A stretch of DNA of 35,273 nucleotides. Source: Owenweeksia sp. (GTDB taxonomy: Bacteria > Bacteroidota > Bacteroidia > Flavobacteriales > Schleiferiaceae). Shown in pieces: positions 9,499-21,923 of the stretch. The notes beneath the pieces were generated by a model. It did no database searches. It saw only the letters and a list, made by a program, of their open reading frames with translations, and was not told the origin of the DNA. Every line of letters starts with the position of its first letter. Positions within the stretch are counted from its first letter, which is position 1. Where the stretch lies: positions 1-35,273 of the forward strand of contig JANQPD010000090.1 of NCBI GenBank assembly GCA_028285465.1. Direction: 5' to 3'. A program made the position numbers and the translations under genes.

Positions 9499-9770
9499 CT
9501 GTCCGAGCGTAGTCGAGGACAGTTTTTGTATAGGAGTTATTCTTCAATATCCATCTCATCTCGACTTCGCTCGATGAAGCCTTGGGCTTAGTGAAACAAT
9601 CTCAATTTGAATGTAGTAAGCCTGTCCGAGCGTAGTCGAGGAGAGTTTTGGTACAGGAGTTATTCTTCAATATCCATCTCATCTCGACTTCGCTCGATGA
9701 GGCCTTGGGCTTAGTGAAACAATCTCAATTTGAATGTAGTAAGTCTGTCCGAGCGTAGTCGAGGAGAGTT
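9499..9770. repeat. 123-bp tandem duplication, two full copies plus a fragment
   Basis: Copy 1 is 9499-9621 and copy 2 is 9622-9744; by my alignment they differ at about five positions. A third copy begins at 9745 and matches for about 26 nt before diverging. Each full copy contains one forward and one reverse palindromic core plus a shared linker (for example TTGGGCTTAGTGAAACAATC). The high identity suggests recent duplication. Confidence 0.85.
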
Positions 9771-18788: not shown

Positions 18789-19327
18789 GTGTTTCGTTTT
18801 TGTAGGGTTTTATGCAGTGCTTGTAAAGCAGCCGCTTCTTTTTTCAGGTCCGTAGCGCGCAACCGGATGTTGCGGTCTTCAATGTCGAGGGTTTTGTTTT
18901 TTTGATTTAGTGCAAATACCAATACACCTGCTTCATAGAAATAGCGAAGGGTATCAGCCGTTTGACGGTCAAAAAAACGGGCTTGTATAAGTTGTTCGTC
19001 CTCGAAATAAAACCACTCGTGGCGCTCTACCTTGTCCGGGCCTCCCTCCAGCATGGCTTTTATCAGCTTTTGCTCCCGGGTATACAGACTTCCCTTTGTC
19101 CAATAAGGATATTCTGTGGAGAGTTCCGCCAGCTCTTCTTTGTTTAAAAAAAGTGAGGGTGTTGCCTGCTTTTCAATAGCCTGTACGCGGGCCTCCGTTT
19201 GGTCAAAGCGGGCTTTCCACCCGCCATATTGCGTGGCGGCCTTATACCGCTGTTCCCCTTCACATGTGGTACAGCTTACCAGTGAAAACAAAGCCAGGGT
19301 GCATAGGGTGAATAAGAAGCTACGCAC
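18785..19327 (-). CDS. Putative lipoprotein of unknown function
   Basis: A 180-aa protein with a lipoprotein signal (MRSFLFTLCTLALFSLVSC, lipobox LVSC, acylated Cys at residue 19) followed by a soluble, charged periplasmic domain with two aromatic stretches (WTKGSLYTREQKL and EWFYFEDEQLIQARFFD). The C-terminus (about 145-180) is predicted helical. I do not recognise the family. It starts with GTG at 19325-19327, overlapping the fabD stop by 8 nt, and its TGA overlaps the mvaD GTG. So it is an obligate member of this operon, although an envelope protein between fatty-acid and isoprenoid genes has no obvious role. Confidence 0.75.
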   Translation of the reverse strand: MRSFLFTLCTLALFSLVSCTTCEGEQRYKAATQYGGWKARFDQTEARVQAIEKQATPSLFLNKEELAELSTEYPYWTKGSLYTREQKLIKAMLEGGPDKVERHEWFYFEDEQLIQARFFDRQTADTLRYFYEAGVLVFALNQKNKTLDIEDRNIRLRATDLKKEAAALQALHKTLQKRNT

Positions 19328-20192
19328 TGGCTACGTTTACTCCTTTGTTTATCTTCATTACGAGGCCTTGCAACACCTTGCCAGGCCCTACCTCGATGAA
19401 TTCCGTCGCGCCATCGGCTATCATATGTTGTACGCTTTGCGTCCACTTTACCGGGGCGGTGAGCTGTTTCACCAGGTTTTCCTTGATCTTTTCGGGGTCG
19501 GTTACCGCAGTGGTGCTCACGTTTTGATACACCGGGCAGATGGGGGTATGAAAAGGTACCCGGGCAATGGCTGCAGCCAGTTCTTCTTCTGCCGGTTTCA
19601 TGAGCGGGGAGTGGAAGGCCCCTCCAACCGGCAACATAAGCGCCCTGCGCGCACCGGCTTCTTTCAGTTTTTCACAGGCCAGGGTAACAGCCCCTGTGCT
19701 TCCCGAAATAACCAGCTGCCCGGGGCAGTTGTAATTGGCCGCTACTACAATGCCGTCTATCTCGCGGCACACCTGCTCCACCACCTTGTCCTCCAAACCC
19801 AGCACGGCCGCCATGGTAGAAGGCTCTAACTCACAGGCTTTTTGCATGGCCCGTGCCCGCTGACTTACCAGTTGCAGGCCGTCTTCGAAACTAAGGGTGC
19901 CGTTGGCGACCAGGGCAGAGAATTCGCCCAATGAATGCCCGGCTACCATAGCGGGGGTGAAGTTTTCCAGGGTTTGTGCCAGGATCACGGAATGCAAAAA
20001 AACCGCCGGTTGGGTAACCTTGGTTTGCTTAAGATCTTCTGCGGTGCCTTCAAACATGATATCGGTAATCCGAAAGCCCAGTAGGTCATTGGCCTGCTCG
20101 AAGCGGTTTTTCGCGAGGGCATTGCCTTCGTAGAGGTCTTTGCCCATTCCGGTAAACTGTGCCCCTTGCCCGGGGAAGATGTATGCTTTCAT
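19320..20192 (-). CDS. fabD: Malonyl-CoA:ACP transacylase
   Basis: A 290-aa cytosolic enzyme that loads malonyl groups onto acyl carrier protein for type II fatty-acid synthesis. GQGAQ (9-13) forms the oxyanion-hole region, the nucleophile is Ser87 in GHSLGE (85-90), and the catalytic His is His194 in GAFHSPLM. The malonyl-binding Arg lies in the SQRARAM segment (110-116). The length is normal. The ATG at 20192 is 10 nt beyond the heptamer repeats downstream of the four-helix-bundle gene, so expression may depend on read-through from that gene or queD. Confidence 0.95.
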   Translation of the reverse strand: MKAYIFPGQGAQFTGMGKDLYEGNALAKNRFEQANDLLGFRITDIMFEGTAEDLKQTKVTQPAVFLHSVILAQTLENFTPAMVAGHSLGEFSALVANGTLSFEDGLQLVSQRARAMQKACELEPSTMAAVLGLEDKVVEQVCREIDGIVVAANYNCPGQLVISGSTGAVTLACEKLKEAGARRALMLPVGGAFHSPLMKPAEEELAAAIARVPFHTPICPVYQNVSTTAVTDPEKIKENLVKQLTAPVKWTQSVQHMIADGATEFIEVGPGKVLQGLVMKINKGVNVASA

Positions 20193-20202
20193 TTGGTGAA
20201 GT

Positions 20203-20223
20203 TTTAGTAGCGAGTATTTAGTA
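20203..20223 (+). repeat. Heptamer array, three units (NNKAGTA), downstream of the four-helix-bundle gene
   Basis: Three contiguous 7-mers on the plus strand: TTTAGTA (20203-20209), GCGAGTA (20210-20216) and TTTAGTA (20217-20223). They fit the same pattern as the six units on the other side of the gene but point the opposite way. The third unit contains the stop codon of the four-helix-bundle gene (TTA at 20218-20220, read TAA on the minus strand). The array sits between that gene and the fabD ATG. Confidence 0.85.
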
Positions 20224-20583
20224 CTTAATTGATTTCCTATAGTTTTTTTGCAAGGCCCGGTTCATGCGCTGAATTTCACTAATTAGGGTCAATAGGTCAT
20301 CAAGTTTTTGTTCTGAAATTAAAGAAATATCCTGGGCTAAAATAAGCTGTGTTTCTAATTCATAGCAACTGCCTTGGGATATGCTCAAGAAGTGCGCAAA
20401 TTCTCTTTGGCTGTTTCTCCCTGCTCCTTCAGCTATATTTGAAGGAATGGAAATAACACTTCGTCTGATTTGGCTAGTCAAACCGTAAGTTTCTTGATTG
20501 GGAAATGATTCAGTAAGCGCATAAACTTCCTTTACTAGCTCTCTGGACTTTTTCCAAAGCGTAAGTTCTTTATAGTTGTGCAT
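20218..20583 (-). CDS. Four-helix-bundle protein, 23S rRNA intervening-sequence (bIVP/S23) type
   Basis: A 121-aa all-helical protein of the TIGR02436/PF05635 group, recognised from LWKKSRELVKEVYAL, then QIRRSVISIPSNIAEG, GRNSQREFAHFLSIS and SCYELETQL. The family was first found encoded within intervening sequences of 23S rRNA genes. Relatives include Avd, the accessory protein of diversity-generating retroelements. Here it is free-standing, in a housekeeping operon between queD (upstream) and fabD (downstream). The family forms basic oligomers that can bind nucleic acid; the function of free-standing copies is unknown. It is closely bracketed by heptamer repeats in inverted orientation, one of which supplies its stop codon. 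No reverse transcriptase or rRNA gene is visible in the window. Confidence 0.9.
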   Translation of the reverse strand: MHNYKELTLWKKSRELVKEVYALTESFPNQETYGLTSQIRRSVISIPSNIAEGAGRNSQREFAHFLSISQGSCYELETQLILAQDISLISEQKLDDLLTLISEIQRMNRALQKNYRKSIKY

Positions 20584-20584
20584 A

Positions 20585-20626
20585 TACTAACTACTCGCTA
20601 CTAATTACTCCCTACTCAATACTCTA
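20585..20626 (-). repeat. Heptamer array, six units (NNKAGTA), upstream of the four-helix-bundle gene
   Basis: Read on the minus strand from the queD stop codon: TAGAGTA, TTGAGTA, GGGAGTA, ATTAGTA, GCGAGTA, GTTAGTA, with no interruptions (42 nt). The array begins directly after the queD TAA (20627-20629) and ends one base before the ATG at 20583. The two innermost units plus the flank mirror the other array: 20586-20603 is the reverse complement of 20205-20222 with 17 of 18 bases matching. The last four bases AGTA are invariant, position 3 is G or T, and positions 1-2 vary. Confidence 0.88.
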
Positions 20627-21043
20627 TTAATCCTCTCCAAAGTACTCCACTGCGTTGTTCAGGGTTTCATCGAGCCGTATTTTGTGCAACTGGCAGCCGT
20701 GTGCAGCAATAAGCGGCTCCAATATCTTCCAGATCTCTTCTGCCAGTACTTCGGTGCTGCTGAATTTGCCGCGCATAAAATCTACATCGTGGTTCAGGTT
20801 GGCGTGATCCAGTTTTTCCGTTATGTGCTCCGTAATAAGCTGCTTCAGGTCTACCAGGTTCATTACAAAGCCGGTATCGGGGTTGATCTTACCTTTTACC
20901 GTTACGGTAAGGGTATAGTTGTGCCCATGAAAATTTTTATTGGCGCATTTGCCAAAAACAGCCTGGTTCTTTTCTTCGCTCCAATGCGGATTGTAGAGCT
21001 GATGGGCCGCACTAAAGCGCTCTTTACGTTCGATATAGATCAT
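20627..21043 (-). CDS. queD: 6-carboxy/6-pyruvoyl-tetrahydropterin synthase family protein
   Basis: A 138-aa protein of the QueD/PTPS family, which converts dihydroneopterin triphosphate to a carboxy- or pyruvoyl-tetrahydropterin, the first committed step to queuosine in most bacteria. Zinc ligands are His14 (RFSAAHQL), His39 and His41 (NFHGHNY), and the catalytic Cys is Cys33 in GKCANKNFHGH. The C-terminal ETLNNAVEY carries the pterin-anchoring Glu. The start was set at ATG 21041-21043, supported by a -7 promoter element just upstream; an in-frame TTG at 21064 falls inside that element. Four residues separate Cys from the first His, so a eukaryote-type PTPS role cannot be excluded. Confidence 0.88.
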   Translation of the reverse strand: MIYIERKERFSAAHQLYNPHWSEEKNQAVFGKCANKNFHGHNYTLTVTVKGKINPDTGFVMNLVDLKQLITEHITEKLDHANLNHDVDFMRGKFSSTEVLAEEIWKILEPLIAAHGCQLHKIRLDETLNNAVEYFGED

Positions 21044-21061
21044 AGGGGCTAAAACTTGGCG

Positions 21062-21069
21062 CAAAGATA
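21062..21069 (-). promoter_or_regulatory. -7 promoter element for the queD operon
   Basis: The minus strand reads TATCTTTG (TAnnTTTG), 18 nt upstream of the queD ATG at 21043, giving a leader of about 15 nt. No TTG is present at the expected distance. It is the only promoter-like match I noticed upstream of the queD to UbiA run. Confidence 0.5.
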
Positions 21070-21164
21070 GCGTATGGCGGCTCTATGGAGGTGTCATGCT
21101 GTAAGTATCCTTGACTAAGGCAATTTAAAGGGAGAAAACGGCTTACTTGAGATACATGCTGAGC

Positions 21165-21923
21165 TTACCAGCTTCCGCTGGCCCCGCCTCCGCCAAAGGA
21201 GCCACCCCCGAAGCCGCCAAAGCCGCCGCCTCCACCAAAACCACCGGAAGAGCCGCTGCCTCCGAACCCCCCGATCCAATAGCCTCCGCCCCCGCGGTAG
21301 CCGCCCCGTCCGCGGCCACCCCTGCGCGACATAAACACTACCAGAAGAATGACAATAAGGAGAAAAGGAAGAAATTGTGCGGGCTTTTTAGTGCGCTTGC
21401 GGTTCGGCTTTCCCTCAAAGGTGCCGTTGAGCAGCTTAAAGATCTGGTCTGTCCCCCTGTCGATCCCGGTGTAGTAGGCGTCTTTCTTGAAGGCAGGGAT
21501 CACATAGTCTTCAATGATCTGCTTGGTTTCCAGGTCAGTCAGTTTCTCTTCCAGGCCATAGCCGTTCTGGATGGCCATTTTGCGGTCTTCTTTGGCGACC
21601 AGGAACACCAGGCCGTTGTCTTTGCCTTTGCGGCCCACGCCCCAGGCCGCGCCCAGTTCGGCTGCGTATAGATTGGGGTCTTCCCCGTTGAGAGTAGAGA
21701 CGATCACCACCGCAATTTCAGTAGAGGTAGTGTCGGTATAACGCAGCAACTTTTGCTCCAGCAAGGCATTTTCCTGGCCGGAAAGCAGGCTGATGTAGTC
21801 GTTGACCAGGCGGGGCGGGTTCATTTTTTCGGGAAACCGTTGTGCCGGCAAGCTTGCGGGTATGCTTCCCAGCAAGGCAGACAGGAAAAGGAACAGGAGG
21901 AGAGAAGAACGTGTTAGCCGCAA
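21165..21923 (-). CDS. Secreted/membrane TPM-domain protein with Gly-rich tail
   Basis: A 252-aa protein with a signal peptide (about 1-27, ending SLPAQ), a TPM domain (about 35-170; core STEIAVVIVSTLNG and GKDNGLVFLVAKEDRKM), one membrane helix (183-199) and a Gly/Ser-rich C-terminus ending in ASGSW. This is the YgcG/Psb32-type layout: the TPM domain faces the periplasm and the helix anchors it. TPM proteins have been linked to photosystem repair and to low-level phosphatase activity; the bacterial role is unclear. The start is TTG at 21921-21923, the only start ahead of the signal peptide, 3 nt after the stop of the second TPM gene. The Gly-rich tail is encoded by a low-complexity stretch (21168-21330). 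Confidence 0.88.
   Translation of the reverse strand: MRLTRSSLLLFLFLSALLGSIPASLPAQRFPEKMNPPRLVNDYISLLSGQENALLEQKLLRYTDTTSTEIAVVIVSTLNGEDPNLYAAELGAAWGVGRKGKDNGLVFLVAKEDRKMAIQNGYGLEEKLTDLETKQIIEDYVIPAFKKDAYYTGIDRGTDQIFKLLNGTFEGKPNRKRTKKPAQFLPFLLIVILLVVFMSRRGGRGRGGYRGGGGYWIGGFGGSGSSGGFGGGGGFGGFGGGSFGGGGASGSW

Follow-up and report, generated by a model that had tools for sequence, protein, structure and literature searches.

Inverted heptamer arrays around an S23/IVP four-helix-bundle gene in Owenweeksia sp. and other bacteria: a possible REPtron-like element

The four-helix gene and its arms between queD and fabD

The window, which is the whole analyzed stretch of 35,273 nt (contig JANQPD010000090.1 of Owenweeksia sp., assembly GCA_028285465.1), contained a unit of 424 bp between a queD-type gene and fabD. 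The features of this locus were as follows (positions are those of the window).

19320–20192, minus strand: fabD, ACP S-malonyltransferase, the downstream neighbor, a co-oriented host gene
20203–20223, plus strand: downstream arm, three inverted heptamers (TTTAGTA GCGAGTA TTTAGTA)
20205–20222, plus strand: inner 18-bp inverted repeat with one mismatch, partner at 20586–20603
20218–20583, minus strand: four-helix-bundle gene, 121 aa, PF05635/TIGR02436 (S23, the 23S rRNA intervening-sequence protein family)
20585–20626, minus strand: upstream arm, six degenerate AGTA heptamers (TAGAGTA TTGAGTA GGGAGTA ATTAGTA GCGAGTA GTTAGTA)
20586–20603, minus strand: partner of the 18-bp inverted repeat
20627–21064, minus strand: QueD/6-pyruvoyl-tetrahydropterin synthase (6-PTHBS) family gene, the upstream neighbor, a co-oriented host gene

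The nine NN[G/T]AGTA heptamers, six upstream and three inverted downstream, had been described in the initial annotation and were confirmed at their coordinates. The 18-bp inverted repeat was exactly as claimed, and the stop codon of the four-helix gene (20218–20220) did lie inside the last downstream heptamer. The QueD/6-PTHBS-type and FabD assignments of the neighbors also held, as did that of the mevalonate-decarboxylase-type gene, which was located two genes on. The six upstream heptamers had been said to fill the whole space between queD and the ATG. The array indeed began directly 3′ of the queD stop (TAA, 20629–20627, minus strand), but a lone T (20584) separated the sixth heptamer from the ATG (20583), and the array therefore covered 42 of the 43 nt of the gap.

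The window array showed 24 of 35 lag-7 matches, which none of 20,000 shuffles equaled, and no other strong lag-7 array occurred in the 35-kb window. Its arms, tandem 7-nt units in intergenic DNA, are of the kind defined as STRR/LSSR. Within the 3.84-Mb genome, three consecutive NN[GT]AGTA units were confined to two places, the window locus and contig 42. The latter carried ~13 near-perfect TAGTAGG copies at the contig end (bases 1–94), next to an ORF that reads as rnpA-like, with no PF05635 gene in view; it may represent a collapsed unit of which the assembly lacks the other half. This array and counts of AGW arrays were what represented dispersed gene-less copies in the window genome. A 123-bp tandem repeat at 9499–9770 (2.2 copies, 96% match), with TCGACTTCGCTCGA-like palindromic stretches, was unrelated to the heptamers.

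In RNA, the 18-bp inverted repeat is predicted to pair into a stem that encloses the entire ORF, and the fold of the unit with its arms paired gave a z of −3.4. No above-threshold Rfam match was found at the window locus and no rRNA match within 19300–21700; the unit was located between the queD- and fabD-type genes and not in a 23S rRNA helix.

The arms enclosed a single gene, that of the PF05635 protein, and no Y1/HUH transposase gene was found between them. To our knowledge, no catalytic motif or activity has been assigned to this family. The protein matched PF05635 (E 2.6e-41, 140.6 bits, cut-off 33.8) and TIGR02436 (E 4e-39, 133.2 bits, cut-off 24). Its similarity to bAvd/Avd was weak and under the cut-offs of those families, and the PF05635 score was far higher. 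The dN/dS values between relatives were 0.02–0.16, indicating purifying selection and that the protein is used. A conserved face was formed by Q38-R41-S45-N49-E52. A relative in the PDB was 2gsc (XCC0516 of Xanthomonas campestris, E 1.7e-24), which is a pentamer (PMC4990558). The window genome contained one other PF05635 gene, located between a FadB-type 3-hydroxyacyl-CoA dehydrogenase/crotonase gene and a thiolase gene. It was also bracketed by inverted 7-periodic arrays, with an ATTG-type word unlike that of the window.

Arrays beside other genes of the family

About 130 PF05635 matches were found among 60 relatives, and most of the loci that were read had bracketing arrays. The statistics were based on 165 genes, mostly of Bacteroidota, comprising those of the relatives, of cyanobacterial and Riemerella plasmids and of 80 GTDB loci (with L069 dropped). 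The relatives were found with a single-protein query, and the locus sample was thus biased towards close relatives of the window protein. Start codons were chosen by script, control gaps were taken from simple ORF calls, and kinship was treated by permutation and site exclusion instead of a full phylogenetic model. The pair L034/L069 had been considered as a transferred element; their host genes were also 100% identical in different genera, so that one of the assemblies is probably contaminated.

The arrays comprised about 3–9 degenerate heptamers, occasionally octamers. AGTA had initially been taken as a fixed word, which did not hold: each locus had its own heptamer, such as GATGTGA (L026), GATTTAA (L014) or AAGACGG (L038), usually with a loose common core of AG followed by T or A. 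In about 80% of the loci, the word was rich in G when read on the gene's strand. Period 8 was called at fifteen loci, several of which had it in both arms, and at some loci the arms were of reversed sense, or one side alone carried complete hairpins.

A strong 7-/8-nt array was present in at least one arm of 78% of the 165 loci, compared with 1–2% per arm in shuffles; it was found in 62% of the upstream and 72% of the downstream arms, and about 17–22% of the loci had no strong array. In 69 relatives, the lag-7 self-match within 70 bp of the gene was 0.39 upstream and 0.44 downstream vs. 0.26 at a greater distance within these loci. Lags 14 and 21 were also raised and other lags hardly, so that lag 7 was the dominant period of the arms. 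Chance or simple low complexity was excluded by the shuffles, the other periods and a control pattern with 10-nt spacing. As inverted repeats, the two arms scored a mean of 15.8 within a locus and 7.8 between loci (p = 9e-56), and as direct repeats 10.0 within a locus; for the predicted RNA duplex of the arms, the values were −23.8 vs. −12.0 kcal/mol.

Arrays were rare beside other genes. In 400 kb of the complete relative G003, 3 of 103 ordinary co-directional gaps had one, whereas the PF05635 genes of the relatives had one in 27 of 56 upstream and 40 of 64 downstream arms (upstream arms vs. control gaps, p = 6e-12). A previous background of 22 arrays in 128 control gaps was partly wrong, because several of these gaps adjoin a second IVP gene, and the G003 sample was the cleaner one. 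The initial annotation had named heptamers that are common at loci lacking the gene as a refutation; beside other genes such arrays were rare, though gene-less copies exist.

The gene was tied to inverted arrays in several phyla. The initial annotation had asked whether free-standing members of the family elsewhere carry flanking heptamers, and these were present in Bacteroidota, Cyanobacteria, Pseudomonadota, Clostridia and Planctomycetes. The Pseudomonadota loci were bracketed in 26 of 32 cases, with GGCAGTA, GGGAGTA, GTGAGGA and other words. Genes on cyanobacterial plasmids were flanked by GGGAGTA, GGGAACA, GGGAAAA or GGTGACA, and the same design was seen in loci titled Clostridia, Planctomycetes, Syntrophobacterales and Atribacterota. 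In the family with the closest relatives of XCC0516, the gene between accB and accC had GGGAATC/GGGATTC arrays, inverted, on both sides; these gene names and the family name Xanthomonadaceae were inferred from sequence.

In some Xanthomonadaceae-like loci (L311, L353–L355 and similar ones), the ORF seemed to begin inside the upstream array, with a putative GTG start within GTGATTC. That suggested that the start codon, like the stop codon, may be provided by an array. The gene and its arrays were located between the cas6 and cas4 genes of CRISPR operons on plasmids of Anabaena sp. 90 (L127, 1489–1857) and Pseudanabaena galeata (L128, 1501–1860). A CRISPR linkage of the 23S rRNA IVP has been noted (PMC10910872), and it may reflect passengers like these two. 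On a plasmid of Nostoc edaphicum (L122, 1495–1863), the gene with GGGAGTA arrays was located between two ribonucleotide reductase genes, on the strand opposite to both.

Apparent inheritance in place and heptamers that follow the protein

The gene preferred gaps between co-directional genes: it was co-directional with both neighbors at 136 of 154 loci, vs. 52% of random gene triples. Old sites included queD–fabD in seven genomes, fadB–thiolase in seven, and accB–accC in many Xanthomonadaceae. At these sites the gene diverged about as fast as its neighbors, and at queD–fabD and accB–accC it appears to have been inherited in place across genera. This is also compatible with a domesticated or regulatory unit. 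A recent insertion at queD–fabD was not supported, since the gene and its arms diverged there about as fast as the neighbors.

Among about 30 queD loci inspected, the gene was present in the window and three relatives, all with arms; three further queD–fabD carriers were found outside this list. The initial annotation had considered that the gene might be conserved at this site without repeats, and all queD–fabD sites with the gene had them. In most relatives the gene-less queD–fabD gaps were 0–97 nt, mostly without repeats, and too diverged to define a duplication; two (in G017 and G015) kept heptamer remnants. No transposition, target duplication or clean strain-level pair of empty and filled sites was seen among the loci compared, and a tblastn search of 50,697 phage records gave no match.

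At orthologous sites the word changed, yet the two arms stayed matched. Of 106 informative ortholog pairs, 84 had arms closer to each other within the locus than to those of the ortholog, and 22 showed the opposite (p = 2e-12).

The heptamer and its period also followed the protein lineage between different sites. Similar proteins at unrelated sites had the same word (L169/L165, L143/L029/L206, L124/L126). For pairs at different sites, heptamer similarity rose with protein identity (Mantel rho 0.15, p = 0.001) and was 0.62 at ≥60% identity vs. 0.36. Period 8 was clustered on the protein tree, with 9 changes vs. 14 in shuffles. One site (U7D8) was occupied in different genomes by two non-sister protein lineages. 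Locus L049 had two PF05635 genes in the order fadB-gene-thiolase-gene within a single operon stretch; both had a periodic flank of their own, and the second gene was from the distant protein clade.

Genomes with the gene held more gene-less arrays, and these resembled the arms of the nearest gene. All 20 sampled gene-less arrays were intergenic and none enclosed a PF05635 gene. Several were compact hairpins, and in two (L243 and L258) the inverted heptamer arms surrounded a terminator-like hairpin instead of a gene. Of the gene-less arrays near a gene, 10 of 19 matched the arms of that gene within the top 10% of all loci. In the 60 Bacteroidota-side relatives, the number of PF05635 genes correlated with that of AGW arrays (rho 0.74; 0.49 with genome size removed), and the AGW motif at 10-nt spacing was nearly absent. 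Among 398 Pseudomonadota genomes, arrays were present in 39 of the 54 gene-bearing ones and in 48 of the 344 others (OR 16, p = 5e-18); gene presence correlates with genome size, which was controlled in the 60-genome set only. One genome (G035) was rich in AGW arrays with no PF05635 gene detected, and some gene-bearing genomes had no AGW array. Two Flavobacteriia loci (L171 and L196) had nearly identical gene-less arrays of AACTGA-type units, close to the TAACTGA of Beggiatoaceae.

Explanations for the unit and comparison with known systems

The explanation that we prefer, at a probability of about 0.52, is that the unit is a small selfish REPtron-like element whose pentameric protein recognizes heptamer arrays. 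It would consist of three parts: the heptamer array, the gene for a pentamer-forming S23/IVP four-helix-bundle protein, and an inverted copy of the array. The protein would recognize tandem heptamer sites, either on DNA or on an RNA hairpin formed by the arms, and may drive the homogenization or spread of the heptamers. Units with the gene would be the autonomous form, and gene-less hairpins and arrays elsewhere in the genome dependent or decayed forms. The unit and its arrays would move as one element, probably via host enzymes, since RVT_1 was absent from most of these genomes and no catalytic activity is known for the family. The minimal mobile cassette proposed in the initial annotation was supported as possible, and so was its argument for a recognized repeat with drifting bases, as opposed to plain slippage.

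A close parallel is the REPtron, in which a single RAYT gene is bracketed by inverted short repeats that are also dispersed, gene-less, in the same genome. The PF05635 gene likewise lies between inverted repeats that occur elsewhere without it. RAYT is a Y1/HUH transposase, whereas the PF05635 protein is a small four-helix bundle. The repeat differs as well: it is a tandem heptamer array, and REPs are intergenic palindromes (PMC3733652).

The intervening sequences (IVS) of the 23S rRNA in Coxiella and Leptospira share the protein family with the window unit (PMC4990558), and in both an ORF lies between inverted repeats capable of forming a stem, 18 bp in the window. The lengths were similar, 424 bp for the window unit and 428 nt for the Coxiella IVS (PMC4990558). 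In Coxiella a 28-bp stem holds the S23 ORF in its loop, and this IVS is cleaved by RNase III in vitro; it was proposed earlier that the 23S IVS is a mobile element whose ORF serves mobility (PMC4990558). Unlike the IVS, units of the window type were located between protein genes of operons, had arms of tandem heptamers that vary by locus, and were accompanied by dispersed gene-less arrays.

The arms also resemble the heptanucleotide repeats of Xanthomonas and Nostoc, the TAACTGA repeats and the cyanobacterial STRRs, which are 7-nt and mostly intergenic. According to Rehm et al. (PMC4692102), which treat GGGAATC/GGGGA(C/T)T heptamers in Xanthomonas/Nostoc, GGGAATC has ~185 copies per Xanthomonas genome, often as inverted pairs, and was left without a function. 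Both arms of the Xanthomonadaceae PF05635 gene carry this very heptamer. According to MacGregor (PMC4679880), TAACTGA arrays are located directly before start codons in Beggiatoaceae, and the mechanism of their transfer was left unexplained. Term searches of the two papers found no mention of S23 in the former and no four-helix-bundle gene in the latter; the repeats alone were described. None of the open-access papers searched linked the PF05635 family with heptamers, and as subscription journals and preprints were outside the search, this is weak evidence for the absence of an earlier report.

The main rival is stationary control at the RNA level, because an mRNA stem around the ORF is predicted and co-directionality is strong. 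The arms would then form a stem in the operon mRNA around the gene, the pentamer would bind the RNA heptamers, and nothing would move; the protein would regulate either its own expression or the cleavage of the polycistronic transcript, and gene-less hairpins would be further control sites. The co-directionality with host operons (136/154) is in line with this, as are the predicted pairing of the arms in RNA, as in the 23S rRNA IVS, the conservation of positions over long times, the Beggiatoaceae arrays before start codons and the stem-loop position and RNase III cleavage of the Coxiella IVS described above. Stationary control alone leaves unexplained that related proteins with the same arms occupy different sites and that one site holds two non-sister protein lineages, nor does it account for the plasmid and cas-operon locations or the local gene-less copies of the same heptamer. 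We consider it possible and clearly less probable than the REPtron-like element.

It is rather improbable that the arrays result from replication slippage with hairpin-templated (quasipalindrome) correction, the gene being a tolerant passenger and heptamers the unit most prone to polymerase slippage. Among long simple repeats, heptamers are the most frequent in many bacteria, and slippage of the polymerase has been proposed as their cause (Mrazek, 2007, as cited in PMC4679880 and PMC4692102); hairpin-templated correction could keep the arms alike. Slippage would not explain that arrays are far commoner beside PF05635 genes than beside other genes, that both arms are of period 8 in some gene lineages, that heptamers follow the protein between sites, and that array-rich genomes are mostly gene-bearing. 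A retroelement of the DGR type, in which an Avd-like protein helps a reverse transcriptase to copy or mutate the heptamers, is very improbable. Avd is a homologous four-helix bundle that is required for DGR retrohoming (PMC10053308), and the window protein has the weak similarity to bAvd/Avd mentioned above. Unlike Avd systems, the window genome (99.97% complete) had no match to the reverse transcriptase family RVT_1 (PF00078), and nor did the single-contig relatives G003 and G054 or the array-rich G037, G038, G052 and G013; at the window locus, no pair of template and variable repeats was noticed. The lack of RVT_1 in the window genome and most array-rich relatives makes a reverse-transcriptase mechanism unlikely, and it also speaks against the initial suggestion that the protein copies or templates the heptamers.

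Returning to the REPtron-like element, we infer that the PF05635 protein binds the heptamers. A broader proposal, which we hold tentatively and rate at somewhat less than an even chance, is that selfish elements of a new class have S23/IVP proteins as their trans-acting factors. Each protein would read its own word and homogenize or spread hairpins, and they would be a common cause of many STRRs and of the TAACTGA and GGGAATC repeats, with the 23S IVS as the same element in rRNA.

The link between gene and heptamers joins two loose ends. One is a protein family that is widespread and whose fold is known; the other is the heptanucleotide repeats, over-represented in bacterial genomes, whose function and origin have been left open by authors since at least 2007. 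For annotation, it is a warning that such genes in cas, fatty-acid or biotin-carboxylase operons may be passengers and not operon members.
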